Assembly: GCF_028656935.1 (NCBI RefSeq)
Contig: NZ_JAMDGZ010000007.1
Span: forward strand, 1-45,320
Source of the DNA: Pseudomonas rubra
Lineage (GTDB): Bacteria; Pseudomonadota; Gammaproteobacteria; Pseudomonadales; Pseudomonadaceae
DNA length: 45,320 nt
Reading direction: 5' to 3'
This document shows, piece after piece, positions 307 to 15,739 of this stretch (its first letter is position 1; each line of letters begins with the position of its first letter). The notes beneath the pieces are model-generated. The model saw only the letters and a program-made list of their open reading frames with translations, was not told the DNA's origin and did not search any database. Both the position numbers and the translations under genes were made by a program.

Positions 307-1527
307 ATGTTCACAGAAGCGCTTTCGATTTCGGTCAAACGCAACACGCCCAGCAGCCCTTCGATCGTTCGAGGCAAGGGCTGCTTTCTTTACGACGCAG
401 ACGGTCGTGCCTTTCTCGATATGTCCGGTGGTAGCGGGGCGGCCAACCTTGGTTATCAACGCGATGACCTGATCGAGGTCACCCAGCGCCAGGCCGAACT
501 GTTGGTGCACACCGGCTGGAACATCGACAACCCGCATCGCCACGAGGTGGTGGCGAAACTCGCACGGTTGGTGCCTTACCCTCAAGCCTCTGTATTTGGC
601 GCCGTGACCGGTGCCGAAGCCATCGAAGTCGCCCTGAAAATCGCCCGTGCCGCCACCGGCCGGCAAGGCGTTGTGTACTTCGACAACGCCTTCCATGGCA
701 AGACCCAAGGGGCCCTGTCGGTTACCTCCAACCCCAACTTTCGCAAACACCTGGCACTCGGCGGCCTGCAGGTCAGCGCGCTGGCCCTGGACTACGCGGC
801 CGAACAGGACCCGGCCAGGGCCGCGCAATGGCATGAGCAGTTGTTCGCCTACCTGACCCAAGCCAAACAGGCGGGCAGTTTGCCAGCTGCGATGATCATC
901 GAGCCGATCCAGGCGGCCGAAGGCATGTATCCGGTGCCAAGGCCATTGTTAGAGTCGATCGTCGAACTGGCCAGAACCTTCGGCGTTATCAGCATATTCG
1001 ACGAGATCTACACCGGTTTTGGGCGAACCGGTAAGCCGTTTGTCAGTGATGCGACGCTACTGCCCGACCTGTTGGTGCTGGGTAAGGCGCTGGGCAATGG
1101 TTTGCCGATTTCGGCGGTGGTCGGACGCACCGAACTGGTCGATTGCCTGGGCTACGCCGAGCACTCTTCGACGTTTACCTTGATGCCTCTGGCCTGTGCG
1201 GTAGCCTCCAAAGTGCTGGATATCTTCGATCAGGAACAACCGTGGCAACTGGCGGCCAGTAATGGCGCGCACTTGCGCCAGGCACTTGAACAATTGGGTC
1301 GGGACGATGAGCGAGTGACCCATGTGCGGGGCCGCGGGCTGATGCTCGCCTTCGATTTTGCCGGCGATGTGCTGGCGCTGCGCAATGGCCTGCTCGATCA
1401 CGGCGTCATCGTCCGCACCGGTGGGTGTAATCCGAACACGGTCAAGCTGACCCCACCGATTGTCATGTCTGGAAGCGAAATCCAGGCATTCATGCAGACG
1501 CTGCAAGGCGTTTGCCAAGCCCTCTGA
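307..1527 (+). CDS. class III PLP-dependent aminotransferase
   Basis: This 406-residue protein is a fold-type I, class III aminotransferase (diaminobutyrate/ornithine-transaminase-like). Near the N-terminus it has the family pattern FLDMSGGSGAANLGY. The PLP-binding Asp sits in IFDEIYTGFGRTG, and the Schiff-base lysine is K260 in LGKALGNG. ATG 307 is preferred over TTG 298 because AAGG at 294-297 is correctly spaced from it. The gene ends in tandem TGA TAA, and the NRPS gene starts 24 bp later behind a strong AGGAAAGG site, so co-transcription is likely. In this setting it probably installs an amino group on a non-proteinogenic precursor, perhaps the product of the EPSPS-like and redox enzymes downstream. 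Its substrate cannot be read from the sequence. Confidence 0.9.
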   Translation: MFTEALSISVKRNTPSSPSIVRGKGCFLYDADGRAFLDMSGGSGAANLGYQRDDLIEVTQRQAELLVHTGWNIDNPHRHEVVAKLARLVPYPQASVFGAVTGAEAIEVALKIARAATGRQGVVYFDNAFHGKTQGALSVTSNPNFRKHLALGGLQVSALALDYAAEQDPARAAQWHEQLFAYLTQAKQAGSLPAAMIIEPIQAAEGMYPVPRPLLESIVELARTFGVISIFDEIYTGFGRTGKPFVSDATLLPDLLVLGKALGNGLPISAVVGRTELVDCLGYAEHSSTFTLMPLACAVASKVLDIFDQEQPWQLAASNGAHLRQALEQLGRDDERVTHVRGRGLMLAFDFAGDVLALRNGLLDHGVIVRTGGCNPNTVKLTPPIVMSGSEIQAFMQTLQGVCQAL

Positions 1528-1551
1528 TAACAACAACAGGAAAGGGACATC

Positions 1552-4422
1552 ATGTTGCAGGCCTATGTTCGCGCTGCGGGTTCTGATGTGGTTGGCGTAA
1601 TTGATTCCAGTGGTAGCCACTCGTTTGCATCAATCGAGCGGTTGCGGGCGGCACTCAGCGCCGAAATCACCCGGACTGGACGGGGTGCGGTGGCGCTCTA
1701 CGCCAGCCACGGGCACCTCATGTATGCCGCGCTGGTTGCCGGTTTGGCCAGTGCTAAACGATTGGTGTTCATCGATCCTGCCAGTGATTTGGCAAGCCTG
1801 CAGGCCACGCTCACGTCACTGGGTGTCAGCGTGATCCTCAACGGTTCGGTACAGTCGGGCCAAAACTTGGCCACCGATCTTGCGGTGATCGACCTGGGAC
1901 TGTTCGAGCCTGCTCCGGTGCCAACTGGCGAGCCGCTGCAACTGTGTTGTGAAGACTATGTCATCTTCACCAGCGGCTCGACCGGCGAAGCCAAGGCCAT
2001 CGTCCAGCGTATCGACGCGCTGAACCAGCATATCGACAACTATGTGGCATACGTCGGCATCTCAGCCCGCAATCGCTTGCTGCAATTGGCCTCGGCGGGT
2101 TGGGACGCAGGCCTGATGGATATCTTTGCCAGCCTCAAGACCGGCGCAATGCTGTGCAGCCTCAACCCGCGGGAGATGGATTTCGCAGCCATCGACGCAA
2201 TGATTGTTGCCCATGATCTTGATGTACTGCACATGACCGTGCCGTACCTGCGCGCGTTCTACAGTCCGGCCTCGACTGCGTATACCGCTGCCAAGCAATT
2301 GGTGATTGGCGGCGAGATCATTCATCCCTCGGACATCGAACGTTTCAACCAGTGCTTTGCAGTCGGCTCGCAACTGTTCAACGCTTATGGGCCTACTGAG
2401 TGCACCACCGCTTTGCACGCCCGTATCAATCAGGGCGAACAGCTACGCTCGGTAACCTGGGCTCTGGACCGTCCGGTTGACGGTGTCGAGGTGGCAGTAA
2501 CCCTCGAGCCGCAGCAGCCTTATGGCGAAGGAATCGGTGAGTTGTTGCTTTACTCGCCGTGGGTGGCTCGGCGCCTGGACAGTGCCAGTGGCCAGATCGT
2601 TGCGCTTACCCAACCCAGCCCGCTTGATCCGCAACGCCAGTGCTACCTTACCGGTGACCTGGCCTGCCGCGAGCCGGACGGCGCGATTCGCCTGCTTGGG
2701 CGCAAGGACTCGATCGTCAAGGTCAACGGCCAGAAAGTCAGTTTGGTGCACGTAGAGTCCCAGCTCAAGCGCCTGAGCCAGGTGCAGGAAGTCTGCGTGA
2801 TTGCCACTGTGGTCCAGGGTAATACCGCACTGGTCGCCTTTGTCATCGCCAGTGCCCCTGAGATTGACGAAAGCGTTGTGCGTCAGGCGGCCAAGGCGCA
2901 ACTCCCAGCCCAGCAGGTTCCGGCGCGGTTCATGCTGCTGGAGCGCTTTGCGCTGAACAGGAACAACAAGATCGACCGTCAGGCATTGGCCGAGATTGCC
3001 GCCGGCATGGCGGAGCAATCTATCGATGCGGGTCAGGCTGAGCCGTTATGGCAGGCAGTTGCTCAGGTGCTCGGTGGGCATCAGCCTGATCCGACGCTTA
3101 GTTTTATCGACAACGGCGGTGATTCGCTACGGGCCTTGCAGGTGGTTGCTGCACTAAAGCGCAAGGGCCTGGTGCTGGATCTGGAGGCCTTGCTTTCAGA
3201 CAGTGCGCTTGAGCAATTGCAGGTGCAGCCGGCAATGAACAAAGCCCGTGGCAAGCGACAGGCTGCAAGTGAGGCCAGCTTGCCCAACCGGCGTTTCCTG
3301 CAAAGCCGGGGTATCAGCGATCTGGACCACTGGAATCAGGCAATCGTCCTGAACATTAGCGGCGATTTGCCTACCCAAGCCGTAAGCCAGGCGCTGCGCG
3401 CGGTGCTTGGCCATCATGCAATCGAACAGGGCATACACGACTTGGGTCAGTTGGGCGCATCGACCGACCTTGCGCAGGCCGTTAGCCAAACGTGCGCCGC
3501 CATTTCCTTGAGCAATCAACAGCGCGTCTGTTTCAGCCAGCTACAACAGGTCGATAGCCACCAACTGATCATCGCCTGTCATCAGTTCGAGGTAGACCGT
3601 TATTCGTGGATGCTGCTGGTTGCCGAACTCGACGAATGCCTGAGCCAGGGCCTGCACTGCATCAGCCAATGGCATCGGGCCTTGCGCTTTGACGAGTGGC
3701 TGCAAAGCTACCAAGCGTTGCACGCCCAGGTGCGCAACACCGACTTCTGGCAAGCCTTGCCCTGGCAGCAGTGTGCTACGTCGAGTCATCGCAGTGTGGC
3801 GTTCCCGCGTCGCGAAGCCTTTGTCCGTGCCGAGCTGTCACTGGGGGCGATTTCGCGCCTGCCAGCCTCGGCACAGGGAATGGCCGAGATCAGCAACCTG
3901 CTGCTGGCTGCAATTCTCGGGGCGATGAGTGAGCACGACGACAAGCCGGTACAGAAAGTCCACCTGCTCGATCATGGCCGCGCCTTGGACAAGCAAGGTG
4001 CCGATCTCAACAGCGTGTTTGGCTGGTTGACCCTGATCTACCCGATGGTGCAGCAGGTTGGCGGGGTAGAGCTGTATGCACTGGCCGAGCGGATCAAGGC
4101 CTACCAGCAGGCAACACAAGGCTTTGCCCATAGTTTCGGCAACCAGTACTTCGGCACTCCCCGGGCCGAGCGTCTGACGGGCGATCTTGACTGCGACTAC
4201 AGCTACAACTTTCTCGGCGCACTGCAGAGCCACATCGGTAGCCGGGTCAATGTCCATCCGCTGAGTGTGCAGTTGCTGCACGGCAGCCCCAGTCACCATC
4301 TGGAGTTCACCGGCTACCTGGTCGATGGCGAGTTGCTGCTCAAAGTCGACTATGACCCCGACCGATACGCCCGCCAGGACCTGGACACTGTGCTCGACAG
4401 GATCAGAGCAACCTTGGAGTAG
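1552..4422 (+). CDS. NRPS module, A-T-E architecture with degenerate E domain
   Basis: This 956-residue nonribosomal peptide synthetase has no N-terminal condensation domain, so it resembles an initiation module of the GrsA/TycA A-T-E type. The adenylation domain spans about 1-490, with TSGSTG at 140-145, NAYGPTE, YLTGDL and the A10 lysine in NRNNKID. The carrier domain has GGDSL with phosphopantetheine serine S525. The rest (about 580-956) is condensation/epimerization-like, with E-type motifs FGWLTLIYP and SYNFLGAL. Two catalytic positions are changed: the HHxxxD motif reads HQFEVD (H677, Q678, D682), and the EGHGR motif reads LDHGR, with L806 where the Glu should be. The domain may therefore be a dead or structural E domain. 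The binding pocket reads by eye as about D-A-M-H-V-G-A-T-A, which I cannot match to a substrate. Confidence 0.92.
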   Translation: MLQAYVRAAGSDVVGVIDSSGSHSFASIERLRAALSAEITRTGRGAVALYASHGHLMYAALVAGLASAKRLVFIDPASDLASLQATLTSLGVSVILNGSVQSGQNLATDLAVIDLGLFEPAPVPTGEPLQLCCEDYVIFTSGSTGEAKAIVQRIDALNQHIDNYVAYVGISARNRLLQLASAGWDAGLMDIFASLKTGAMLCSLNPREMDFAAIDAMIVAHDLDVLHMTVPYLRAFYSPASTAYTAAKQLVIGGEIIHPSDIERFNQCFAVGSQLFNAYGPTECTTALHARINQGEQLRSVTWALDRPVDGVEVAVTLEPQQPYGEGIGELLLYSPWVARRLDSASGQIVALTQPSPLDPQRQCYLTGDLACREPDGAIRLLGRKDSIVKVNGQKVSLVHVESQLKRLSQVQEVCVIATVVQGNTALVAFVIASAPEIDESVVRQAAKAQLPAQQVPARFMLLERFALNRNNKIDRQALAEIAAGMAEQSIDAGQAEPLWQAVAQVLGGHQPDPTLSFIDNGGDSLRALQVVAALKRKGLVLDLEALLSDSALEQLQVQPAMNKARGKRQAASEASLPNRRFLQSRGISDLDHWNQAIVLNISGDLPTQAVSQALRAVLGHHAIEQGIHDLGQLGASTDLAQAVSQTCAAISLSNQQRVCFSQLQQVDSHQLIIACHQFEVDRYSWMLLVAELDECLSQGLHCISQWHRALRFDEWLQSYQALHAQVRNTDFWQALPWQQCATSSHRSVAFPRREAFVRAELSLGAISRLPASAQGMAEISNLLLAAILGAMSEHDDKPVQKVHLLDHGRALDKQGADLNSVFGWLTLIYPMVQQVGGVELYALAERIKAYQQATQGFAHSFGNQYFGTPRAERLTGDLDCDYSYNFLGALQSHIGSRVNVHPLSVQLLHGSPSHHLEFTGYLVDGELLLKVDYDPDRYARQDLDTVLDRIRATLE

Positions 4423-4431
4423 AGAACAAGC

Positions 4432-5364
4432 ATGAACGCTGATCACAACAACAAGAAACCCCGTTCACTGATCGCACCGCTGATGTTCGTCGGTTGCCTG
4501 ATGATCTGGTCGACCAACTGGATCGCCATCTCGCTACAGGTAGAGCGCTCCGACATCGGCTCTTCGCTGATGCTGCGGTTTTTGATTGCCTACCTGGTGT
4601 TGTGGCTGTGCCAGCGGTTGTTTGGCACAGTGCAGGCCAAGGTGACGCGTAGCGCTTACCTGCAGATGGCCTGCGTGGGGGCGGTGTATTTTTATGCAGG
4701 TATCGGCCTGGCCTATCTGGCCACCGCTTATCTGGGCAGTGCGCAGATGGCGTGCCTGAGTGCATTGGTGATTTTCTACATCATCGGCCTCAAGCGCTTG
4801 CTGTTCAAAGCGCCGGTTGCCATACACAGCCTGGTTGGCGGCCTGGTGAGCCTGCTTGGCCTGGGGCTGTTCATGCTCGGCGACGATGCCCGGCCCTTGT
4901 CCCTGCCCGGTACCGTGCTGGCCCTGACGTCGTTTCTTGGCGTGGCCCTTGGCTCGGTGCTCTCGGAGCACATTCAGCGCAGCCATGGCCTGGGCACCTT
5001 GCACATCAACAAGGTGGCTGCCGGCTGGGCCTGTGCCCTCTACGCACTCAGCCTGCTGCTGACCGGCAAGGGCCTGCAACTGCCTTCGACCCTGGTCGAT
5101 GCCAGCATCTTGTTGTATCTGGGGGTGATCTGCTCAGCACTGGTGTTCGTGCTGTTCATTGACCTGATCAAGCGGGTAGGGGCAGAGAACGCCGGCTATG
5201 TCGGCGTGCTGTATCCGATCGGCGCAAGTTACCTGTCGGTGTGGCTGGGCGAAACGCCCTTGGGCCTGCACATGATGATTGGCAGTGCGCTGGTAATGCT
5301 TGGCAGCCTGATCAACTTCAAATGTCGATACAACCCTGGACTGAAGAAACTGGAGTTTTCCTGA
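4432..5364 (+). CDS. EamA/DMT-family transporter, probable product exporter
   Basis: This 310-residue polytopic inner-membrane protein has about ten hydrophobic segments and the two-fold EamA layout of drug/metabolite transporters. It opens with a short cytoplasmic tail and the typical first helix LMFVGCLMIWSTNWIAI. The second half repeats the pattern, ending in LYPIGASYLSVWLGE and a last helix near 285-300. It starts 9 bp after the NRPS stop, and its own stop directly touches the next ATG, so it belongs to the cluster operon. DMT proteins usually export small amino-acid-like metabolites, so export of the product or a precursor is the likely role. Substrate and direction are inferred from context. 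Confidence 0.88.
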   Translation: MNADHNNKKPRSLIAPLMFVGCLMIWSTNWIAISLQVERSDIGSSLMLRFLIAYLVLWLCQRLFGTVQAKVTRSAYLQMACVGAVYFYAGIGLAYLATAYLGSAQMACLSALVIFYIIGLKRLLFKAPVAIHSLVGGLVSLLGLGLFMLGDDARPLSLPGTVLALTSFLGVALGSVLSEHIQRSHGLGTLHINKVAAGWACALYALSLLLTGKGLQLPSTLVDASILLYLGVICSALVFVLFIDLIKRVGAENAGYVGVLYPIGASYLSVWLGETPLGLHMMIGSALVMLGSLINFKCRYNPGLKKLEFS

Positions 5365-5832
5365 ATGAACAACCTGCAGATTCGCTTGGCCACTGCGGAC
5401 GACGCCAGTGGCATTTTCAACGCCCATCGCAACTCGGTGGAGCGCCTTTGCACCCAGGATTACAGCCCCGAGCAGATCAGCATGTGGCTCGACGGGCGCT
5501 CAGCGCAGACCTACCGCGAAGCAATTGACAAGGGTTTGCTGTGGTTGGCCGAGACCGATTCGATTCAGGGTTTCGTCGAGGTCGAGGGCAACGAGATCAG
5601 CAAGCTGTTCATTTGCGGTGACGGCGCCCGCCGCGGTATCGGCAGCCGATTGCTCGAGGTGGCTATCGAACACCTGCGCAATGGCGGTGCGCAGAGCGCC
5701 TACCTGGAAGCCACCCTCACCGCCGAGCCCTTTTACGCCCGGCATGGTTTTCAGAAAATCGGCGAGGGCACCTTCAGCCGAGGGAACAGCCCGGTCTCGC
5801 TGGAGATCGTAAAAATGCAGCGCAGCCTCTGA
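5365..5832 (+). CDS. GNAT-family N-acetyltransferase
   Basis: This 155-residue single-domain GNAT protein has the acetyl-CoA-binding loop RRGIGSRLL at about 92-100 and the C-terminal signature FYARHGFQKIGEG. It is of normal length for the family. Its ATG directly follows the TGA of the transporter gene, so the two are translationally linked. Next to an exporter inside a biosynthetic operon it could acetylate the product or a precursor for self-protection, or act as a tailoring enzyme; neither can be settled from sequence. After its stop the operon has its largest internal gap (105 bp), containing a hairpin. Confidence 0.88.
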   Translation: MNNLQIRLATADDASGIFNAHRNSVERLCTQDYSPEQISMWLDGRSAQTYREAIDKGLLWLAETDSIQGFVEVEGNEISKLFICGDGARRGIGSRLLEVAIEHLRNGGAQSAYLEATLTAEPFYARHGFQKIGEGTFSRGNSPVSLEIVKMQRSL

Positions 5833-5871
5833 TCTGACAGCTGCTTACTGACAACACAGCGTTTTAGTCGC

Positions 5872-5895
5872 CGCCCTTGAGTCTTTTCGAGGGCG
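5872..5895 (+). other. intercistronic hairpin within the biosynthetic operon
   Basis: A 9-bp stem pairs 5872-5880 (CGCCCTTGA) with 5887-5895 (TCGAGGGCG), with one G-T pair and a 6-base loop. No T-tract follows, so it is not a good intrinsic terminator. It lies in the only sizeable gap of the cluster. It may stabilise the upstream message or set the ratio between the exporter half and the FrhB/EPSPS half of the operon. Confidence 0.5.
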
Positions 5896-5937
5896 TGGCT
5901 TCCTGCACCCGAAAATCGGCACTTGAGGTTACTGAAA

Positions 5938-7155
5938 ATGACAGGGATGTTGTTGAAACTCACCGTTCTTGACCAGAACCTTTGCGCAGGCTGCGGTGCT
6001 TGCGCCCTGGTCTGTCCGGAGCAGTTGATCAGCTTCGACCCCGACACGGTCACGCCGGTGCTGGACCTTGCGGGTGATCACTGCGAGCCCTGTGGTGAAT
6101 GTCTGGCAGTCTGCCCAGGGCTGCAGCCAGACACGGACCGCGCCGAACAGGAGCTGTTTGGCCGTACGCGCACCGCCCAGGAGCGCTGGCTGGGGATCAA
6201 TCGGGCGGCAATCGGCGCACGCTCGACTGACGCGCACATCGTTCGGCGTTCGGCCAGCGGCGGTACCGCAACCACCTTGCTGCTGACTGCGCGGGCGCAT
6301 TTAGGCGTGGACCTGACGTTGACCATGGGCCGCGATGCACAGCAAGGCTGGCGCAGTGCTGCGCAAGTGGGCGGTGCTGAGCAAGCGATTATCAACAACG
6401 CCCAGTCCACCTATCAACTGGCGCCGTACCTCAATGCCTTGCGCGAGTGCTTCGAGCAAACGCCTGAAGCGCGTATCGCCCTGGTTGGCCTGGCGTGCCA
6501 TGTGCAGGCTATCCGCAAGCTGCAGCGTCGGGACACGACCATTGGCCGCTGGGCGAAAAGCCAGGTTGTCTGTGTGATTGAAACCGCCTGTTCGTCCAAC
6601 ACCTTGCCGGCCGGTACCCGCAGCATCATCAGTGATGTGCTGGCCCAGGACCCGCAGCAGGTCACGGATATCAAGTACCGCGAAGGCGAGTACCCCGGAC
6701 GCTTGCAGGTGACCCTGATCGACAACCAGACCTTGGGCATCGATTTCTGGGAAATCCTCGGCAAGCTCAAGGACAACAAGACTTTTCGCTGCCTGAGCTG
6801 CGGCGACTGGATGAGCGGCCTGGCGGACGTCAGCGTCTGTGATGGTGACCCGAATATCTTCGAAGCCAGCCTCAACGGCTCGCAAGAAAAGAAGCATGGC
6901 CGTGCGCTGGTGCGTACCGACATGGGCCAGTTACTGGTTGACAGTGCGATTGCCCATGGTCGCCTGGAAACCTGGGCGATTGACCTGAGCGGCTTCAACC
7001 TGGGCCTTGAACGCAAGAAAAACCGTCGGCGTTTCTACGAGACGCAAGATCTGGTGCTGCCCGCCGGCCCAGGCATCGGTGACCTTTTCGACGAGATGGC
7101 GTTAGTGGATGACGCCGAACTGATCAACCCCGCCAACTACAGGAGTGCACAATGA
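5938..7155 (+). CDS. FrhB-like coenzyme F420 hydrogenase/dehydrogenase family protein, 2[4Fe-4S]
   Basis: This 405-residue cytoplasmic oxidoreductase begins with a bacterial ferredoxin domain carrying two cysteine clusters, C16-C19-C22-C26 and C49-C52-C55-C59, enough for two [4Fe-4S] centres. The rest matches the FrhB/FdhB beta-subunit type, with further conserved-looking cysteines in LACHVQAIRKL, IETACSSN and CLSCGDWMSGLADVSVCDG. ATG 5938 is preferred to TTG 5923 because GAGG at 5925-5928 is well placed for it. Members of this family are flavin/Fe-S reductases, not always F420-dependent; Pseudomonas is not known for F420, so another electron carrier is likely. Its stop overlaps the EPSPS-like start (ATGA). 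It probably reduces an intermediate on the building-block pathway. Confidence 0.85.
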   Translation: MTGMLLKLTVLDQNLCAGCGACALVCPEQLISFDPDTVTPVLDLAGDHCEPCGECLAVCPGLQPDTDRAEQELFGRTRTAQERWLGINRAAIGARSTDAHIVRRSASGGTATTLLLTARAHLGVDLTLTMGRDAQQGWRSAAQVGGAEQAIINNAQSTYQLAPYLNALRECFEQTPEARIALVGLACHVQAIRKLQRRDTTIGRWAKSQVVCVIETACSSNTLPAGTRSIISDVLAQDPQQVTDIKYREGEYPGRLQVTLIDNQTLGIDFWEILGKLKDNKTFRCLSCGDWMSGLADVSVCDGDPNIFEASLNGSQEKKHGRALVRTDMGQLLVDSAIAHGRLETWAIDLSGFNLGLERKKNRRRFYETQDLVLPAGPGIGDLFDEMALVDDAELINPANYRSAQ

Positions 7156-8498
7156 TCGATTACCCGGACCGACAGATAGATTTCAAACTCGATGGCGAAC
7201 ATCAGGTCTGGGCGAATGTCGATGAGCGCCTGCCTTCGGACAAATCCATCAGCCACCGGATGATTCTGTTCGCGGCACTGGCGGCGCACCCGGTCAAGCT
7301 GCGCTCGCTCAACCGCGGCAAAGCCGTGACGCTGTTGCTGGATGCCTTGCAACAACTGGGTTTGCAGGTGACGCAAGAAGAAACCCGCGACTGCGTGAGT
7401 ATCAGCGGCGACTTCGCTGCTGATACTCACGAGACAGTGGTTGACCTGGGCCCTTCGAGCGCCGCTGCACGGATGCTGATTGGCATGCTGGTAGGCTTGA
7501 ATGTGCCGTGCATCGTTGATGGCGATGAAACCCTGCGCAATCGCCCCTTCGACTGGATCGTCGAGCCGTTGAATCAGATGGGCGCTGACCTGCACTACCT
7601 GGGCAAGCCCGGCTCGCTGCCGGTGCGCATCAACAAGGCGCAGTTCAACGGCGGCCATGCCTTGATCCGCATCGGCAGTGCCCAGGCCATCAGCACCTTG
7701 CTGTTTGCCGGTGTAGCAGCCCGCAAGGCCCTGTCGATCAGCTACCCGGTGGTGTCTCGGGACCACACCCAGCGAATCGTCAACAGCTTTGGCGACAGCC
7801 TGCTCGAACGCCATCACCACATCGAATATCAGCCACGCCAGTGCACGGTGCCCGAGGAGATTTGCATCCCACGAGACCCCTCGGCGATTGCCTATCCGGC
7901 TGCGCTGTTCCTGCTGTGTAACCGGGGCCGCGCGCAGCAGCAGTTGACCTTCGACAATGTCTGCCTGAACCCCACACGGCTGGGCTTTTTCACCTGGCTT
8001 GGCCTGTGCGGCTTCAAGCTGACCGTGGTGGTGGACAGCGAGCGTAATGGCGAACCCATCGGTCGGCTGATCCTTGAAGGCGGCGGTGAACCCAGGGCTC
8101 ACGACCTGCGTGACAAGGATCTGTTTCACGCGATGATCGACGAAGTGCCGCTGGCCCTGGCCATTGCCTGTTTGTTGCCGGGACAGGCGAGCTTCACCGA
8201 CCTGTACGAACTGACCTTCAAGGAGTCCGATCGCATCGCGGCGACCCGTCGTACGCTCAATGCCTTCGGCCTGGACTACCAGGTACACGGCTATGACGTT
8301 CGTGTAGACGGCGCACAAGTCCCCCATGCGCCCGAGGCCGTGCCAACCTTTGGCGACCATCGACTGTCGATGACCGCCCACGTGCTGCTGCTGGCCCACG
8401 GGTTACAGGGCAGCATTCTCGAAGGGCATTGCTACAAGACCTCATTCCCGGGCTTTGCCGAATGCCTGGACACCCTCACAGGACGCCGTGGCTTATGA
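7152..8498 (+). CDS. EPSP synthase-like (AroA-family) enzyme of secondary metabolism
   Basis: This 448-residue protein has the full length of 3-phosphoshikimate 1-carboxyvinyltransferase. Several active-site motifs are kept: K31/S32/R36 in DKSISHR, GDETLRNRP, SAQ in GSAQAISTLL, DEVPLALA, KESDR at 357-361, FGDHR at 400-404, and K429 in YKTSFP. The normally near-invariant NAGTxxR loop is replaced by PSSAAAR (101-107). Together with its place inside an NRPS operon this argues for a specialised paralogue, not housekeeping AroA. It may act on a modified shikimate, perform a related enolpyruvyl transfer, or catalyse an elimination. It starts at an ATGA overlap behind AGGAG (7141-7145) and ends at another ATGA overlap with the dehydrogenase. 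The function is inferred. Confidence 0.9.
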   Translation: MIDYPDRQIDFKLDGEHQVWANVDERLPSDKSISHRMILFAALAAHPVKLRSLNRGKAVTLLLDALQQLGLQVTQEETRDCVSISGDFAADTHETVVDLGPSSAAARMLIGMLVGLNVPCIVDGDETLRNRPFDWIVEPLNQMGADLHYLGKPGSLPVRINKAQFNGGHALIRIGSAQAISTLLFAGVAARKALSISYPVVSRDHTQRIVNSFGDSLLERHHHIEYQPRQCTVPEEICIPRDPSAIAYPAALFLLCNRGRAQQQLTFDNVCLNPTRLGFFTWLGLCGFKLTVVVDSERNGEPIGRLILEGGGEPRAHDLRDKDLFHAMIDEVPLALAIACLLPGQASFTDLYELTFKESDRIAATRRTLNAFGLDYQVHGYDVRVDGAQVPHAPEAVPTFGDHRLSMTAHVLLLAHGLQGSILEGHCYKTSFPGFAECLDTLTGRRGL

Positions 8499-9505
8499 AC
8501 AGACTTCGATACACCCTCACGGCCTGCGGTGCTGACGGTGTGCAACGCTTGCAGGCGTCGCTGCGCGCGCCCGCACCGACTGAGGTGCAAGTAGCCGTGG
8601 ACTACACGCTGGTCAGCCCGGGCACTGAGCGACACTACATTCGCCAGGTTGCCCGGAGCGGTGAGCAACTGCCGCTCGGTTACTGTGCTGCGGGCGTTGT
8701 CAGCGGGGTGGGTGCGCAGGTCGATCAGTTCACCCCCGGCGACCGGGTGGTGGCCATGGGCTGGAACATCGCCACCCACTCCAACTGGATCAACGTACCG
8801 CAGCGGCTGGTCTGCCGGGTACCGGACGCACTCAGCCTGGACCAGGCAGTACTCGCCACCCTTGGCGCCACAGCGGTACATGCCGCTGACCGTGGCCAGT
8901 TGGAGGAGGGCGAGCAGATTCTGGTGGTTGGCATGGGACCGGTCGGTAAGTTGCTGAGCCTGGTGGCCGCGCGGCGCAAGGTTCAGGTCTGGGCGGCTGA
9001 CCTCAACCCGCACGCCATCGAGGCCGGCCTGCCGCTGCGTACCCTTGACCTGCAGGGCGACCTGCAGGCGCTGAGTGGGCACTTCAGCACGATATTCCTG
9101 TGTATTGACGCCGACATCACAGCGCTGCTGCCGCGCTTGATCAGCCTGCTGAACCCGCAGGGCAAGGGTCGCGGCCGTTCGCGGCTGGTCAACGTCGGGC
9201 GCGTCAGCCTGTCCCTTGAACTGTCCCCGCAGTTGGGCAATGTCGATATCGTCAATGCATCGCGCTGTGGCACAGGCTACCGCGATGACGACTACCACCA
9301 TGGACGCAAGAGCCTGCGCAGCGTGCCGGGTGAATCAACGGTCGATCACAACATTGCACGCTGCCTGGACGACCTGGTGCACAGCCAGTTGTGGCTGGAC
9401 TGCCTGCGACGCGAGCAGCAGCCTGTTACGCAAGCGTTGCTCAGCTACAACTCGGCGGCATTCTTTGCCCCGGGCATTCAACTGATCAATCACCAGGAAG
9501 GTTGA
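8495..9505 (+). CDS. MDR-superfamily dehydrogenase, BchC-like, apparently zinc-free
   Basis: This 336-residue medium-chain dehydrogenase/reductase starts at an ATGA overlap (8495), which is preferred over an upstream in-frame start lying inside the EPSPS-like gene. The N-terminal GroES-like half carries SPGTER where classical zinc alcohol dehydrogenases have the zinc-ligand cysteine, and PGDRVVAMGWNIATHS further on. The Rossmann half has the nucleotide loop VVGMGPVG. The SxGTER pattern and missing Cys resemble the BchC/bacteriochlorophyllide-dehydrogenase-like branch. It would oxidise or reduce an alcohol/ketone or enone on a small substrate with NAD(P). Its location between the EPSPS-like gene and the second NRPS suggests it acts on the building block. 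The C-terminal part is less recognisable. Confidence 0.82.
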   Translation: MNRLRYTLTACGADGVQRLQASLRAPAPTEVQVAVDYTLVSPGTERHYIRQVARSGEQLPLGYCAAGVVSGVGAQVDQFTPGDRVVAMGWNIATHSNWINVPQRLVCRVPDALSLDQAVLATLGATAVHAADRGQLEEGEQILVVGMGPVGKLLSLVAARRKVQVWAADLNPHAIEAGLPLRTLDLQGDLQALSGHFSTIFLCIDADITALLPRLISLLNPQGKGRGRSRLVNVGRVSLSLELSPQLGNVDIVNASRCGTGYRDDDYHHGRKSLRSVPGESTVDHNIARCLDDLVHSQLWLDCLRREQQPVTQALLSYNSAAFFAPGIQLINHQEG

Positions 9506-9509
9506 CGGC

Positions 9510-11273
9510 ATGACGTGTGTATCGATACCTGAGCGCCTGGAGCAAATATTTGCCCGCCATGCGCACGACATCGCCCTGAGCTGCAATGGACAGGCAATCA
9601 GCTATGCCCAGTTGCAGGAGTGCTCGGCGGTTGTGGCCGCGCATTTGCTTGGCTTGGGCCTGGCACCGGGCACCACGCTGGCCTTTGATGTGCAGCGCTC
9701 GATCGAGCAGGTGGTGCTGATCGTCGGGATGGTGCGGGCGGGCTTGTCGTACTGCTATCTGGACCCAGGCAACCCGGCGCAGTGGAATGCGGCGATCGTC
9801 TCGCGCAGTGGCATCGACTGGACCGTCAGCGAAGTACCTTCGGCAAACCTGCTGCTCGCCGACCTGCTCGCGCCGGCGCCGCTGCCGTCGCACTGGCCGG
9901 CCTTGGGTGGCGAGGAAGCGGTGTATGTGAATTTCTCCAGCGGCACCACCGGTGCGCCGAAAATCATCCCCTGCACCCATAAGGGCGTGCTTGGCTTCTG
10001 TGATCGGCCGCAGCACTTCGCGCTGACCCCGGGCTTTGCCATGCTCTATGCCTCGAACCTGACTTTCGATGCGTCGCAGTTCGAGATCTGGACCAGCCTG
10101 CTCAATGGCGGGCAACTGTGCATTCATCCGCCCGGGCCACTGACTTTCAGCGCCTTGCAGCGCTACGTCAGGGCAGGGCAGGTCGACAGCTTGTGGTTGA
10201 CCTCGACGCTGTTCAACACCTTCATAGACATCGACCCGCAGTGCCTGCAAGGGGTAAAGCGCTTGATGGTCGGCGGCGAGACATTGTCACCTGCGCACAT
10301 TCGTCAGGCGTATGACGCAACCTGGGAAATGACGATCTACAACGGTTACGGGCCTACGGAAAACACCATGGGCACCTGTGTTTACGCCATTCCTCGAACC
10401 TTCGACGGCCACCGCGACATTCCTATCGGCCATGCGGTGGCAGACGCCACCTTATTGGTGGTGCGTGACGATGGTAGTGCCTGTGCTGATGATGAGCCTG
10501 GCGAACTGTTGATCGCTGGTGCTGGTTTGTCCCCGGGGTACCTGGGCGATGCGGCGCAGACACGGGAAAAGTTCGTCGAACTGGATTGGCAGGGCACACG
10601 GCTGCGTTGCTATCGCAGCGGCGACCTGGTGTCTTGTGACAGCGATGGCCTTTATCGCTTTCACGGGCGTCGCGACGACCAGATCAAGCTGCGTGGCCAG
10701 CGAATATCCCTGAGCGAAATCACTGCGGCCTTCAAGCAATACCCGGGCATGCTCGACTGCGCCGTTGTGCTAGATGATCCGGGCGGCGTGGAACAATTGG
10801 TACTGGTTTATCTGCGCAGGTCGGTAATTCTGCCGGCGGACCTGGCCGATTATGGCCGGACTCATTTGCCGCCGTTCATGGTCCCTCAGCGCTTTGTTGC
10901 GATCGAGCGGTTTCCCCTGCGCGCCTCGGGCAAGCTCGATACCCACGCCCTGCAACAGCACGTGAGCGGCGCCAGCGAGCGGGCGGGCGACTCGGGCTCG
11001 GACTTTCTGGCGAGCTTTGGCCTGCACAGCCGGAATCTGGCGGCCAGTTTTTTCGACAACGGTGGCAACTCGCTGGCGGCGATCAAGTTGGTCGGCAGGG
11101 TTAACCAGCAGTTGGGTTGGGAGTGGCTGAGTCTCGCGCAGTTCTACCAGTTGGCCACGTTGGGTGAACTGCTGGCTGTGCTGGACAGTCAGCCGGGGCT
11201 GGCCGCATGGCGGCAGGCAAGTGTCGAGCGCTATTACGTGATTGCACTGGAGCAGGAGGCGATCAATGACTGA
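9510..11273 (+). CDS. NRPS, adenylation-thiolation didomain
   Basis: This 587-residue NRPS protein has an adenylation domain followed by one carrier domain. Visible A motifs are FSSGTTG (142-148), FDASQFEIW, NGYGPTEN, YRSGDL, RRDDQIKLRGQRI and the A10 lysine in RASGKLD. The carrier motif is FDNGGNSLAA with phosphopantetheine serine S521. The pocket read by eye is about D-A-F-W-M-G-G-M-G, resembling codes for aliphatic residues such as Val, but this is weak evidence. The start is 4 bp after the dehydrogenase stop, behind AGGAAGG (9494-9500). The stop overlaps the next gene by 8 bp. With no C domain of its own it must rely on the separate condensation protein encoded next. Confidence 0.92.
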   Translation: MTCVSIPERLEQIFARHAHDIALSCNGQAISYAQLQECSAVVAAHLLGLGLAPGTTLAFDVQRSIEQVVLIVGMVRAGLSYCYLDPGNPAQWNAAIVSRSGIDWTVSEVPSANLLLADLLAPAPLPSHWPALGGEEAVYVNFSSGTTGAPKIIPCTHKGVLGFCDRPQHFALTPGFAMLYASNLTFDASQFEIWTSLLNGGQLCIHPPGPLTFSALQRYVRAGQVDSLWLTSTLFNTFIDIDPQCLQGVKRLMVGGETLSPAHIRQAYDATWEMTIYNGYGPTENTMGTCVYAIPRTFDGHRDIPIGHAVADATLLVVRDDGSACADDEPGELLIAGAGLSPGYLGDAAQTREKFVELDWQGTRLRCYRSGDLVSCDSDGLYRFHGRRDDQIKLRGQRISLSEITAAFKQYPGMLDCAVVLDDPGGVEQLVLVYLRRSVILPADLADYGRTHLPPFMVPQRFVAIERFPLRASGKLDTHALQQHVSGASERAGDSGSDFLASFGLHSRNLAASFFDNGGNSLAAIKLVGRVNQQLGWEWLSLAQFYQLATLGELLAVLDSQPGLAAWRQASVERYYVIALEQEAIND

Positions 11274-12552
11274 GTCATCCGAGGTGTTTTCGATCAAGAC
11301 TCATCTGGGGCGCTTTGCCGTGCTGCGCGCCACCTCTGAGCAGCAGGCCCGGCAACGGCTGGGGGCAACTGCGGGCGGGCTTGACGATAGCGACGACCAA
11401 CACACAGTGGAATTGAACAAAAGCCAGTTGTCGATGGTGTATGCGCAACTGTTGGGCAAGAATCTTACTGCCAACAACGTGGTGTACCTGTTCAAGCCCG
11501 AGCAGGTGGCCGCAGCGTCAGTAGACCTGGCATCGCTAGCCCGGCAACTCAAACGCCTTCATCCACTGATTGCCTGCCGCGTTGTGCGGGTACAGGGCGA
11601 GTATGCGTTCGATCTGGACCCGTTACCGCCTTCAACCTTGCTGCTGACTAAAGTGCCTGCTTTCGAAGGCCTGCAGGATTGTGTCGAACACTTCCTGCAG
11701 CAGCCGCTCTCACTGTTCGAAGACGATCTGTTCTACCTGTTCAAAGTGCGTATTGGTGAGACGTTGCACCTGGGGGCCTGCTTGCATCACATTCTTGGCA
11801 ATCATGTCGGTCAGTTCAACGTGTTGCGCAGTGTCCAGCAACTTGCCCAGCAACTGCCTGGCACAGGACAGCCTGGCGACTTCAGCTTTGTCAGCAACAA
11901 CCTGATGCTGGCCGATGAGTACGAGCGCCAGGTCGACGCTTACAGTGCCGACTGGGAAGCGCAAAGGCACCGCTATACCCGGCTGGCACGGCTACCCGCA
12001 CCACTCGCCAGCGCCCAGGCACTGCAGTTGCGCGCACCACTGGCGATCGATAGCTTGGCACTGGAGGGGCCACAGCGGCTTGTGCAGTTCCTGCAGGTGT
12101 ACCGGCAAAGCTGCGCCGCTGCCTTGGGAGTCGAGGCGGCCATCGTCAATGTGCTGGTTGACTGGGCCGATAGCAGCGTCACCAGCGGATTTTCCACCTA
12201 TACCGTCCCGATTGCCCTGGAGCCCGCGGACAGCACGCTGCAGCAGCAGGTGGCGCAACTCAACGCCAGGCTTGCCCAAGCCCTGCTCGGTTATGAGGAG
12301 ATTCTCGGCGCGTTACAGTTGTACGATTTCACCCCGTCGTTTCTGTTCAATCTGGTTGAACTGACGAATCAGGATGCAGCATGGCTGCAGCGTTACATCG
12401 CCAACCCGGTGAGCGAGAAGCCCAAGACCCTGCTTGACCTGACGCTGATCAAGTCTGCGCTGGGCCATGAGGTGCTGCTCAATAGCTATTTGCCGGCTGC
12501 GCTGGCCGAGTCATTCCTTGCATGCTTTGTCGCGGGAGTACAGCAGATATGA
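11266..12552 (+). CDS. free-standing NRPS condensation-like domain with HHxxxNH motif
   Basis: This 428-residue protein has the length of one condensation domain. It is recognisable from LNKSQLSMVYAQLLG near the N-terminus (C1-like) and the core LHHILGNHVGQFN. The active-site motif reads H174-H175-x-x-x-N179-H180, so the catalytic second His is kept while the usual Asp-Gly is Asn-His. ATG 11266 is chosen because a perfect AGGAGG lies at 11254-11259. It overlaps the A-T gene by 8 bp, and its stop overlaps the thioesterase start (ATGA). It is the only condensation candidate in the cluster besides the degenerate E domain. It presumably joins the residues carried by the two NRPS proteins, or acylates or offloads with an unusual nucleophile. 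Confidence 0.8.
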   Translation: MTESSEVFSIKTHLGRFAVLRATSEQQARQRLGATAGGLDDSDDQHTVELNKSQLSMVYAQLLGKNLTANNVVYLFKPEQVAAASVDLASLARQLKRLHPLIACRVVRVQGEYAFDLDPLPPSTLLLTKVPAFEGLQDCVEHFLQQPLSLFEDDLFYLFKVRIGETLHLGACLHHILGNHVGQFNVLRSVQQLAQQLPGTGQPGDFSFVSNNLMLADEYERQVDAYSADWEAQRHRYTRLARLPAPLASAQALQLRAPLAIDSLALEGPQRLVQFLQVYRQSCAAALGVEAAIVNVLVDWADSSVTSGFSTYTVPIALEPADSTLQQQVAQLNARLAQALLGYEEILGALQLYDFTPSFLFNLVELTNQDAAWLQRYIANPVSEKPKTLLDLTLIKSALGHEVLLNSYLPAALAESFLACFVAGVQQI

Positions 12553-13187
12553 AGCTGATCTGTTTCCCCGACTTTGTCGGCCATCCCATCTGTTTCTCTG
12601 CGCTGGCGCGTCAACTAAAGGGCAGGGCGCTGCTGACGACACTCAACTACAGCGATTACTGGCCCTATCCGAGCATCGAGGTGCTGGCCGAACGGATTGC
12701 TGACGGCCATGACCTCGCGGCCATGGATCTGGTACTCGGCTACTCGTTTGGTGCCCGGGTGGCTGCCTGTTGTGTGTCACAACAGGGCGCGGCACAGCGT
12801 CTGTGCCTGGTTGATCCACCTGCGGTTGCCAGCGTTCAGGGGCACAGCCTGCAAAGCATCGCCCAGCGCCTGGCAACTGACCCGCAATATGCCTACATCG
12901 ATGACCTGGTTGATGCCCAGTTGGTGGAACGCGACTGCGTGCTGGGCAACATTCAGATGCTCGCGCACTTGTCGCGCCAACCGCTGCCGATTGTGCCGGT
13001 CGACGTGTTGCTTTCAGCACAGAGCAGCGTCAGCGAACTGGCCCAGGAGCTGGGACTGCATCGCGCTGCATGCCATCGCTACCACGTTGCGCTCGGCACC
13101 AGCCATGCTTCGGTGATCAACGATCCGTGCCTGGCAGCGCTGATCATGCAAAGCCCAGCGTTGGCCTGGCCAACCTTGGCAGGCTAA
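12549..13187 (+). CDS. free-standing thioesterase / alpha-beta hydrolase
   Basis: This 212-residue protein resembles the thioesterase domain of NRPS termination modules. It begins with a short beta strand (MKLICFPDFVGHP), has the nucleophile elbow GYSFG with S66, and a candidate catalytic His at H186 in TSHASVI. I could not place the acid residue with certainty. The start at the ATGA overlap with the condensation gene is chosen over the upstream in-frame start. It probably releases the finished peptide by hydrolysis or cyclisation, or removes misprimed carriers (type II). Its stop codon overlaps the convergent stop of the recombinase remnant, so it is the last gene of the cluster. Confidence 0.85.
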   Translation: MKLICFPDFVGHPICFSALARQLKGRALLTTLNYSDYWPYPSIEVLAERIADGHDLAAMDLVLGYSFGARVAACCVSQQGAAQRLCLVDPPAVASVQGHSLQSIAQRLATDPQYAYIDDLVDAQLVERDCVLGNIQMLAHLSRQPLPIVPVDVLLSAQSSVSELAQELGLHRAACHRYHVALGTSHASVINDPCLAALIMQSPALAWPTLAG

Positions 13188-14308: not shown

Positions 14309-14806
14309 ATGCTGAAGCTCGCAGTGGCTCTCCGTGCGCTCGAACTGGCCGACCTGGCGTTTGCCGAACGCCTCTATGCCAGCACGCGAGCCGAGGAAAT
14401 GTCTTATAGCGGCTGGCCCGCCGAGCAAATCGCGACCTTTCTGCGCCAGCAGTTCGAAGCCCAGCACACCTATTACCAACACCATTACCCTGATGGTGAG
14501 TTCTCAATCATAGAGCTCAATGGCACGCCCATTGGCCGTATATATATGTTCTGGGGGCCGACCACCCTGAACCTGATCGACATTGCACTGGTGCCCGAAT
14601 ACCAGATGCAGGGGATCGGCAGCGCGCTGTTGGCCCAGCAACTGCAACGGGTTGACGAATTGGGGCTGGCCGTCGAGCTGTCTGTCGAAACCTACAACCG
14701 CGCGCAAAGGCTGTACGCCCGCACCGGCTTTCATGTGATCAATGAGTCCGGGGTCTATCTGCGCATGCGCCGCGCGCCCCGAAATGCTTCCAGCAGGATA
14801 GTTTAA
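14309..14806 (+). CDS. GNAT-family N-acetyltransferase of the tail-collar operon
   Basis: This 165-residue single-domain GNAT protein has the acetyl-CoA loop YQMQGIGSALLAQQ at about 93-106 and the C-terminal LYARTGFHVINESG. Its TAA stop overlaps the next ATG by one base (TAATG), so it is translated with the DUF6916-like and tail-collar genes. GNAT genes are often found next to MdpB-type tail-collar genes, but the acetyl acceptor is unknown. It may modify a partner protein or be a peripheral metabolic enzyme. Confidence 0.85.
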   Translation: MLKLAVALRALELADLAFAERLYASTRAEEMSYSGWPAEQIATFLRQQFEAQHTYYQHHYPDGEFSIIELNGTPIGRIYMFWGPTTLNLIDIALVPEYQMQGIGSALLAQQLQRVDELGLAVELSVETYNRAQRLYARTGFHVINESGVYLRMRRAPRNASSRIV

Positions 14807-15132
14807 TGAGCGATGAGCGTGTTTTTTTGATCCCTTCCCGCATTGAAATGGAGCAGGCCGACGCTGAAGGCTTCGCCCTCCAGGTCACGGCCGATACAGC
14901 CCTGCCGGTGACATTGTTGGAGGTCTGCCAAGGCGTAGCGATGAACGTCCGCTACGAGTGCTATTCGCTGATGTTTGGCCTACCGACGGGCACGACGTTG
15001 CCTCAGGCGGTGTATCGCCTGCTCGGCCCCGGCGGCAAGCAATGGACTTTGCTGATGACGCCGATATTGTCCGGCCCGGGCAGCCTGTTCACCCTTGAAG
15101 CGGTAATTCATCGTGAACTCCAGGCGCCGTAG
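14806..15132 (+). CDS. DUF6916-like small protein
   Basis: This 108-residue protein has no signal peptide or membrane segment. Its pattern, with YSLMFGLPTGTTLPQAVYR in the middle and PGSLFTLEAVIHRE at the end, fits the small DUF6916-type family that accompanies bacterial tail-collar genes. It is sandwiched between the GNAT gene (1-base overlap) and the tail-collar gene (52 bp downstream). No function is established to my knowledge; a partner or chaperone of the collar protein is a guess from context. Confidence 0.65.
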   Translation: MSDERVFLIPSRIEMEQADAEGFALQVTADTALPVTLLEVCQGVAMNVRYECYSLMFGLPTGTTLPQAVYRLLGPGGKQWTLLMTPILSGPGSLFTLEAVIHRELQAP

Positions 15133-15184
15133 GCGGTGGGCTGTTGAAACCAGAATTCGAACCACACAACAAAGGTAGTTTTTG

Positions 15185-15739
15185 ATGAGCGATCCATTTC
15201 TCGGTGAAATCAAGATGTTCGCAGGTGACTTTGCGCCGCGTGGTTATGCCTTCTGCACTGGGCAGATACTACCTTACAACCAGAATATCGCGCTTTCCTC
15301 GATTCTGCGCACTACTTTCGGCGGTGACGGCAGGACCACATGCGGCTTGCCAAACTTCCAGGGCCGTTCGCCTATCGGTACCGGTGTCTTAGATTCGTCG
15401 GTATTCAAACTTGGTGAAGCGAAAGGTACCGAACAGGTTACCTTGGGAATATCCAATATGCCAGTTCACGCTCACGTACTCCCCCCTATCACCGTTGGCG
15501 CCTCCACCCTGGCAGCGACCACCGACACGCCTGCGCCAGGTATCTGTCTAGGTGTTGCAAACGACGGCAATGGCACCAAGAGCAACATCTATGTTGACGC
15601 GAAGCCTTCGATGAACCTGGCCCGTTCATTGACTACCACTGAGACAACCGGTAGTTCAGTGCCGTTCGATATCCGTAACCCATACCTAAGCATCAGTTTC
15701 ATTATCGCGCTCGAAGGGACCTTCCCGATGCGTGGCTGA
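15185..15739 (+). CDS. phage tail-collar domain protein (MdpB/microcystin-dependent type)
   Basis: This 184-residue protein has the strong tail-collar signature: PFLGEIKMFAGDFAPRGYAF at the start, then LPNFQGRSPIGTG, followed by a variable middle and the end SFIIALEGTFPMRG. ATG 15185 is preferred over the adjacent TTG. No other phage structural gene lies nearby, so it is not part of a prophage. Such orphan collar proteins are widespread in bacteria and appear near large secreted proteins; their role is unclear. An intrinsic terminator follows 15 bp after the stop, separating it from the giant surface-protein gene. Confidence 0.9.
   Translation: MSDPFLGEIKMFAGDFAPRGYAFCTGQILPYNQNIALSSILRTTFGGDGRTTCGLPNFQGRSPIGTGVLDSSVFKLGEAKGTEQVTLGISNMPVHAHVLPPITVGASTLAATTDTPAPGICLGVANDGNGTKSNIYVDAKPSMNLARSLTTTETTGSSVPFDIRNPYLSISFIIALEGTFPMRG

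Follow-up and report, generated by a model that had tools for sequence, protein, structure and literature searches.

5-Enolpyruvylshikimate 3-phosphate (EPSP) synthase, referred to here as AroA, is among the best studied enzymes and is the target of the herbicide glyphosate. An EPSP synthase (EPSPS) homologue is also found in secondary-metabolite clusters that start from shikimate, in the cyclohexanecarboxylate starter pathways of ansatrienin, asukamycin and phoslactomycin. The present analysis concerns a 45,320-nucleotide stretch of Pseudomonas rubra DNA (contig NZ_JAMDGZ010000007.1, positions 1 to 45,320; hereafter the window), in which an EPSPS-like protein, P0006, is encoded within a series of ten genes, P0001 to P0010 (Table 1), that likely form one compact nonribosomal peptide synthetase (NRPS) gene cluster. 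On balance, we lean towards the reading that these ten genes make and export a two-residue peptide containing one unusual amino acid, which would be built from shikimate 3-phosphate by a cassette of four of them: a class III aminotransferase, an FrhB-type reductase, the EPSPS-like protein and an enzyme of the medium-chain dehydrogenase/reductase (MDR) family.

P0006 shares with AroA the fold, the Pfam family and the substrate and acid-base residues, but differs from it at Gly96 (Ser in the clade of P0006) and Thr97 (mostly Ala), lies on the other side of a branch supported at 100/100, scores below the NCBIfam cut-off and is located in biosynthetic clusters. The FrhB-type reductase, P0005, shares the FrhB N- and C-domains and the ferredoxin clusters with the F420 hydrogenase beta subunit, FpoF and 7-hydroxymethyl chlorophyll a reductase, but falls below the NCBIfam cut-offs and is located in a peptide cluster. 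The cyclohexanecarboxylate starter pathways, set beside the cassette by description only, differ in proceeding through CoA esters and in having no aminotransferase. Tabtoxin, the phosphinothricin peptides and bacilysin, to which the ten-gene cluster is likened by its genes, likewise combine a small peptide line with an exporter-type protein and a GNAT acetyltransferase, whereas their unusual residues are built by other enzymes. Finally, the last domain of P0002 shares with NRPS epimerisation (E) domains a sequence match to tyrocidine and gramicidin synthetases, and differs from them by Gln and Leu at the catalytic His and Glu. The cluster as a whole is an NRPS system, and the cassette is its unusual part. 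This combination of genes had not been recognised in the preliminary description of the window, and so far no description of it was found in the open full-text literature, most subscription papers and MIBiG lying outside the search; cassette and cluster are provisionally regarded as undescribed.

The ten-gene unit is rare. The MDR gene was found in four of 398 genomes of the genus, the window's own genome included, and the other three (L088, L089 and L090) carry all ten genes in identical order, with proteins 55-86% identical to those of the window over the matched parts. The expectation that the genes form a conserved unit thus holds in 3/3 relatives found in the genus, and scattering of the genes, looked for as evidence to the contrary, was seen in none of them. 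Samples of the class and the phylum searched at 1e-75 returned the window's own genome only (1/369 and 1/398, respectively), and matches in the plasmid search reach at most 31.8% identity.

Beyond Pseudomonas, all four cassette genes are present at seven of seven EPSPS-like loci from Actinomycetota and Bacteroidota (L004-L010), whose hosts are Catellatospora, five Streptomyces and one Flavobacteriaceae; the MDR row of L007 is cut by the contig end. These loci belong to 80 (L004-L083) among the matches listed in a scan of contigs with a profile of alignment A1, a scan that did not reach the close proteobacterial relatives. A1 itself comprises 45 of the 56 close EPSPS-like proteins (P0006 and P0011-P0065), with 11 left out. 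At the remaining 73 loci (L011-L083), which look like ordinary aroA loci and serve as controls, FrhB and MDR genes are absent (0/73 each) and the aminotransferase is detected, weakly, at two. The cassette proteins of the different phyla are about 33-50% identical to the four of the window, and an adenylation (A) domain resembling that of P0002 is encoded at 5/7 outside cassette loci versus 0/73 control loci. In the genus of Streptomyces sp. AC1-42W, the FrhB gene occurs in eight of 295 genomes, two of which (G1136 and G1139) were already among the loci of the A1 scan; at 8/8 of these short loci the aminotransferase and MDR genes adjoin FrhB.

The genes around the cassette differ from host to host. 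In AC1-42W the order is EPSPS-like, aminotransferase, FrhB, MDR, an adenylation-thiolation (A-T) protein, a ketosynthase-acyltransferase-ketoreductase-thiolation (KS-AT-KR-T) polyketide synthase (PKS), a luciferase-like monooxygenase, a condensation (C) domain and a protein with a weak KASIII match. In the metagenome-assembled genome (MAG) of the Flavobacteriaceae (L102-L103) it is MDR, a protein judged KASIII-like by eye, aminotransferase, FrhB, an A-domain-containing NRPS protein of 1074 amino acids and EPSPS-like, next to which lie another class III aminotransferase and a protein judged GNAT-like by eye. The constant element is thus the cassette; the assembly line varies. The preliminary description had named the gene families; the four-gene cassette, its spread and the degenerate E-type domain described below had gone unnoticed. 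The hybrid NRPS-PKS cluster of AC1-42W (L098-L100) also encodes an M17 aminopeptidase, possibly a self-resistance target, and a protein resembling carbamoyltransferases by eye.

In protein searches, close relatives of the EPSPS-like protein were listed from Burkholderia, Brenneria, Bradyrhizobium, Agrobacterium vitis and a Herbaspirillum MAG. The MDR relatives listed are from Pseudomonas protegens, other Pseudomonas, Burkholderia and Bradyrhizobium, and those of P0002 from P. tructae (97%), P. protegens, Burkholderia, Bradyrhizobium, A. vitis and Brenneria. In the non-Pseudomonas genera of these listings, the comparison covers relatives of these three proteins only. Judged from equal listed sizes, EPSPS-like and MDR genes share a contig in 12 of 22 close EPSPS-like entries, the window's included, and EPSPS-like and P0002-like genes do so in five entries.

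Three genes of the EPSP_synthase family are present in the genome of the window, encoding P0006, an AroA within a longer fusion and a MurA-like protein. P0006 scores 224.6 bits against TIGR01356 (NCBIfam AroA), below the cut-off of 287.25, and in a phylogenetic tree that took 20 of the 64 presumed housekeeping proteins (P0066-P0129), 55 EPSPS-like rows are separated from 22 housekeeping rows by the branch with support 100/100. Its structure model has a pLDDT of 94.4, and the best structural matches are EPSPS structures, among them the G96A entry 1mi4. P0006 therefore has the fold, the family and the substrate and acid-base residues of AroA, without its equivalog score or its Gly96. In comparison with E. 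coli AroA, K22, S23, R27, R124, S169 and Q171 are kept in 16/16 cassette rows, as are D313, K340, E341, R344, H385 and R386, positions that we take to serve in shikimate 3-phosphate binding, acid-base catalysis and contact with phosphoenolpyruvate (PEP). The AroA loop GNSGTT reads GPSSAA in P0006, with Ser103 at the Gly96 site. Position 96, which presumably faces PEP and glyphosate in AroA, is Ser in 45/45 A1 rows and 7/7 outside loci, whereas it is Gly in 64/64 presumed housekeeping proteins and in 72/73 control loci, the remaining one having Ala; at position 97, the Thr of AroA is mostly replaced, by Ala in 40/45 A1 rows. These residues suggest that P0006 probably still takes shikimate 3-phosphate, or a close analogue, as its first substrate and that the second half-reaction has probably changed. 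The earlier interpretation of the cluster is supported in part; within it, the derivation of the amino acid from shikimate or an enolpyruvyl unit is a prediction. P0006 keeps the residues for shikimate 3-phosphate, but ordinary enolpyruvyl transfer is less certain because the PEP side carries the Gly96-to-Ser change in all rows aligned.

The other three cassette enzymes also depart from their best known relatives. The aminotransferases belong to the Pfam class III family and keep the lysine for pyridoxal phosphate (PLP). The EPxQGEGG motif of E. coli GabT and ArgD reads EP[IV]Q[AV][AT]EG in 11/11 of them, so that the Glu is not at its motif position but one residue further on, and in 10/11 the [LM]R[IF] motif carries Lys instead of Arg; these positions presumably hold the Glu-Arg pair of GabT/ArgD-type aminotransferases, which the cassette enzymes lack. 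Two CxxCxxCxxxCP motifs and the FrhB CxxC are present in 11/11 cassette FrhB proteins, one further FrhB Cys being Ser in the five Streptomyces rows, and P0005 is assigned to the FrhB family by its FrhB domains and cluster cysteines. Among PDB sequences it is matched best by F420 hydrogenase-type proteins and by F420-dependent sulfite reductase, and more weakly by 7-hydroxymethyl chlorophyll a reductase (E 0.0039); the cut-offs it falls below are the listed NCBIfam ones for FrhB and FpoF. The MDR enzyme matches ADH_N weakly (24.6 bits, cut-off 23.5) and the BchC model at 46 bits (cut-off 291). The places that we take to hold the catalytic zinc ligands (Cys, His) of MDR alcohol dehydrogenases read VSPGTE (ISPGTE in one) and LGYC in 11/11 rows; with the usual ligands missing throughout, a zinc alcohol dehydrogenase is considered unlikely.

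As an alternative, the EPSPS-like enzyme might still be a carboxyvinyl transferase that places the enolpyruvyl group of PEP onto a modified acceptor, the vinyl group then being reduced by FrhB. There are parallels, as MurB reduces after MurA and divinyl reductases act likewise. The weak match of FrhB to 7-hydroxymethyl chlorophyll a reductase points in this direction, and the Arg and other residues that presumably hold PEP are kept except at 96 and 97. Those two exceptions, however, lie where PEP presumably binds in AroA and are Ser and Ala in 45/45 and 40/45 rows, respectively, and the aminotransferase would be left without a clear role, so that we consider this alternative rather unlikely.

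The specificity code of the P0002 A domain is DAMMVGATA, preceded by a Trp before Asp235 that is common to the Streptomyces (DSQSAGACA) and flavobacterial (DSQAAGMSA) lines, while P0008 (DAFLMGGMG) carries the usual Phe instead. A tree was built from 50 A domains, 20 of them cassette-linked. The 30 others came from 27 of the 105 background proteins P0177-P0281 (every fourth), from P0008 and its counterpart in L089, and from one Streptomyces protein; P0166 (a short piece) and one long flavobacterial protein were left out. All 20 cassette-linked domains and two of the 30 others (P0177 and P0257) fall on one side of a branch with support 100/99, and P0008 falls on the opposite side. The unusual amino acid suggested earlier gains support here, as one A domain of the cluster falls into a lineage to which cassette-linked domains from other phyla also belong. 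Since P0008 has the only other A domain of the cluster, the likely reading from these codes and this tree is that P0002 loads the cassette product. The nearest sampled outside relatives of the P0002 A domain, P0177-P0180, P0182, P0191 and P0257, belong to longer NRPS proteins with the code DAM(A/S)VGG(L/I)A, and their substrate might hint at the cassette product.

The C-terminal domain of P0002 (3259-4422) is of epimerisation type. Its best PDB-sequence matches lie in tyrocidine synthases 2 and 1, in PvdL, in gramicidin S synthase 1 and in bacitracin synthase 3, and the top matches we take to be E domains. Gln678 and Leu806 occupy what are presumably the places of the catalytic His and Glu in 15/15 rows (P0002 and 14 homologues; P0166 was left out of this alignment, A4). 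An active epimerase is considered unlikely on this ground, and the domain is apparently a conserved, non-epimerising subtype.

P0009 is probably, not certainly, a condensation-type protein. In one profile-profile comparison it matches an alignment of 124 C-family domains plus the seed, taken from the P0002 search matches P0177-P0281, at 93.7% over 375 columns, with HHILGNH placed on the HHxxxDG site. The P0002 domain reached 98.8% in the same comparison, and two unrelated proteins, entered as single sequences rather than alignments, reached 2.9% and 0.1%. In L088-L090 the counterpart of P0009 is fused to the preceding A-T protein as one polypeptide. In the window, at 11242-11300, the stop of the A-T gene and the start of the condensation-type gene lie in overlapping frames; gene fission, a frameshift or an error of the assembly would account for the split.

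The ten open reading frames (ORFs) of the unit, at 307-13187, are all open, lie on the plus strand and are tightly packed without any large gap, as first described. Overlaps of 4-8 bases occur at the likely starts of FrhB/EPSPS-like, EPSPS-like/MDR, A-T/C-like and C-like/thioesterase; as the likely starts 7152, 8495, 11266 and 12549 each overlap the preceding stop codon, the genes look translationally coupled. The start of P0005 is uncertain within 5923-5947. A Pfam family could be assigned to nine of the ten proteins, all except P0009. Of the components of an NRPS cluster, adenylation and carrier domains are present in P0002 and P0008 and a release domain in the thioesterase (PF00975); P0009 is a candidate for the condensation domain, the condensation-family domain of P0002 being E-type. 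P0002 and P0008 are indeed two NRPS proteins that each load one residue.

Chemistry, order of assembly and product are inferred here from what was observed: which genes are present and conserved as a unit, the recurrence of the cassette in three phyla, the changed residues and the tree of A domains. For a two-residue peptide with an amino acid derived from shikimate 3-phosphate, the EPSPS-like enzyme would hold shikimate 3-phosphate in its conserved site and, with its PEP side altered, carry out an elimination or an altered transfer that does not give EPSP. The FrhB-type enzyme would pass low-potential electrons through iron-sulphur clusters to a flavin, so that the ring is reduced or loses a hydroxyl group; oxidation of a ring alcohol by the MDR enzyme would then give a ketone, which the aminotransferase would convert into an amine. 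This amino acid would be loaded by the A domain of P0002 and an ordinary, probably hydrophobic amino acid by P0008; P0009 would join the two residues, and the dipeptide, once freed by the thioesterase, would leave the cell through the EamA protein. The GNAT enzyme might acetylate the free amine as self-protection, by analogy with Trojan-horse peptides such as tabtoxin. If P0009 is a condensation protein, P0008 and P0009 (A-T-C), then P0002 (A-T-E-like) and finally the thioesterase would make up a canonical two-module dipeptide line. The product is likely an exported dipeptide with one amino acid made by the cassette, and it perhaps acts as an antimetabolite.

Several observations weigh against this scheme. 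No other shikimate-pathway family was found by Pfam among the ten genes. The MDR search named no protein of Brenneria, Agrobacterium or Herbaspirillum despite the EPSPS-like proteins there, in a listing that shows each cluster's longest contig only, so that missing genera do not establish absence. A P0002-like A domain was not found at L004 and L007, and the Streptomyces cassette adjoins a PKS, so that the final products would differ. In the A-domain tree, the Streptomyces and flavobacterial domains are joined by P0177 and P0257, and P0002 is closer in code to the P0177 group (DAMAVGGLA) than to Streptomyces, which indicates a lineage not exclusive to the cassette. A single clade of cassette-linked A domains was neither recovered nor rejected (p-AU 0.218), and the term cassette-linked is itself inferred for P0002 relatives with contigs not seen. 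Asp235, the usual sign of an alpha-amino acid, fits a ring amine less well; it is kept in all cassette-group A domains and thereby limits the placement of a ring amine. The E-type domain of P0002 lacks the usual catalytic residues. P0009 has no relevant match in Pfam, among PDB sequences or in two shallow profile comparisons, scores a non-significant 6.6 bits (E 1.6) against the C-domain profile by HMMER, and has a structure model of low confidence (pLDDT 35.8). What had been called a free C domain is thus favoured by the one profile-profile comparison, and went undetected in the other searches.

A further alternative is that shikimate is not involved, the EPSPS fold being reused on another ring or chain acid and the product being an unrelated small amide or cyclised compound instead of a dipeptide. 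No other shikimate gene lies among the ten, the altered aminotransferase motifs and the lost MDR zinc site suggest drift from textbook roles, and neither the condensation-type protein nor the E-type domain is of the ordinary kind. Such a reuse appears unlikely in view of the residues presumed to bind shikimate 3-phosphate, which are kept across the rows aligned. Yet another explanation is that the cluster makes an inhibitor of EPSP synthase and P0006 is a self-resistance copy, shielded by its Gly96 substitution. It is at position 96 that the G96A enzyme, glyphosate-insensitive by the title of PDB 1mi4, is changed; P0006 keeps its acid-base and Arg residues, and a separate AroA is encoded in the genome. 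P0006 nevertheless lies apart from housekeeping AroA in the tree (100/100) and below the AroA cut-off, and FrhB, aminotransferase and MDR genes accompany its relatives at 7/7 outside loci, in two further phyla and beside different assembly lines. Simple self-resistance was accordingly ranked low as a leading reading, and we regard it as improbable. That ordinary genes came together by chance, without a shared product, is scarcely credible: each family is common alone, but the gene order is conserved in three relatives and the cassette recurs across phyla with a clean control.

The region downstream of the unit encodes, among others, two giant repeat proteins that are probably type I secreted adhesins. 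One, of 3053 amino acids, has DUF4347/FG-GAP; the other, of 2231 amino acids, starts like BapA and contains 19 Big_6 stretches. They are accompanied by an ABC exporter, an HlyD protein and two TolC-type proteins. Five downstream ORFs of the window, one of them antisense and one represented by its first part only, were compared on the downstream side and none was found in the stretches of the three relatives, so that the downstream genes seem not to be part of the unit.

Table 1. Positions of the ten genes and of the downstream features in the window
Feature	Position	Strand	Evidence or remark
Class III aminotransferase-type PLP enzyme P0001, cassette gene	307..1527	+	PF00202 E 1.1e-83
NRPS A-T-E-like protein P0002	1552..4422	+	AMP-binding + PP-binding + Condensation family; A code DAMMVGATA
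EamA-type membrane protein P0003, probable exporter	4432..5364	+	PF00892 E 6.1e-19
GNAT acetyltransferase P0004, possible self-protection or tailoring	5365..5832	+	PF13673 E 2.3e-14
FrhB-type reductase P0005, N-terminal two-cluster ferredoxin part, cassette gene	5947..7155	+	PF04432/PF04422/Fer4
EPSP-synthase paralogue P0006, cassette gene	7152..8498	+	PF00275 E 3.8e-54
MDR-family oxidoreductase P0007/P0130, cassette gene	8495..9505	+	PF08240 weak
NRPS A-T protein P0008	9510..11273	+	PF00501 E 5.9e-53, PF00550; A code DAFLMGGMG
Probable divergent condensation-superfamily protein P0009	11266..12552	+	Profile-profile comparison, HHILGNH motif
Thioesterase P0010	12549..13187	+	PF00975 E 1.1e-06; start 12522 or 12549
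ORF of 340 codons without family	downstream of ten-gene unit	-	
Second GNAT, DUF6916 protein, phage tail-collar-domain protein	14309-15739		Between NRPS cluster and adhesin
Two giant repeat proteins and type I secretion set	15781-38799		

It is quite possible, and is put forward tentatively, that the cassette represents an undescribed branch of shikimate metabolism, in which a repurposed EPSP synthase, with an invariant Gly96-to-Ser change and no longer making EPSP, acts together with FrhB, a zinc-less MDR enzyme and a switch-less aminotransferase to convert shikimate 3-phosphate into an amino acid that is supplied to various NRPS and PKS lines of plant- and soil-associated Proteobacteria, Streptomyces, Catellatospora and a flavobacterium. 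If this is true, the EPSPS fold would have a new enzymatic use, in a paralogue clade that carries a fixed change at the glyphosate site and is linked to three other genes in three phyla, and the clade would allow a family of natural products to be traced from sequence alone. P0002 homologues are listed for the biocontrol species Pseudomonas protegens, so that the product can be sought in a tractable organism.

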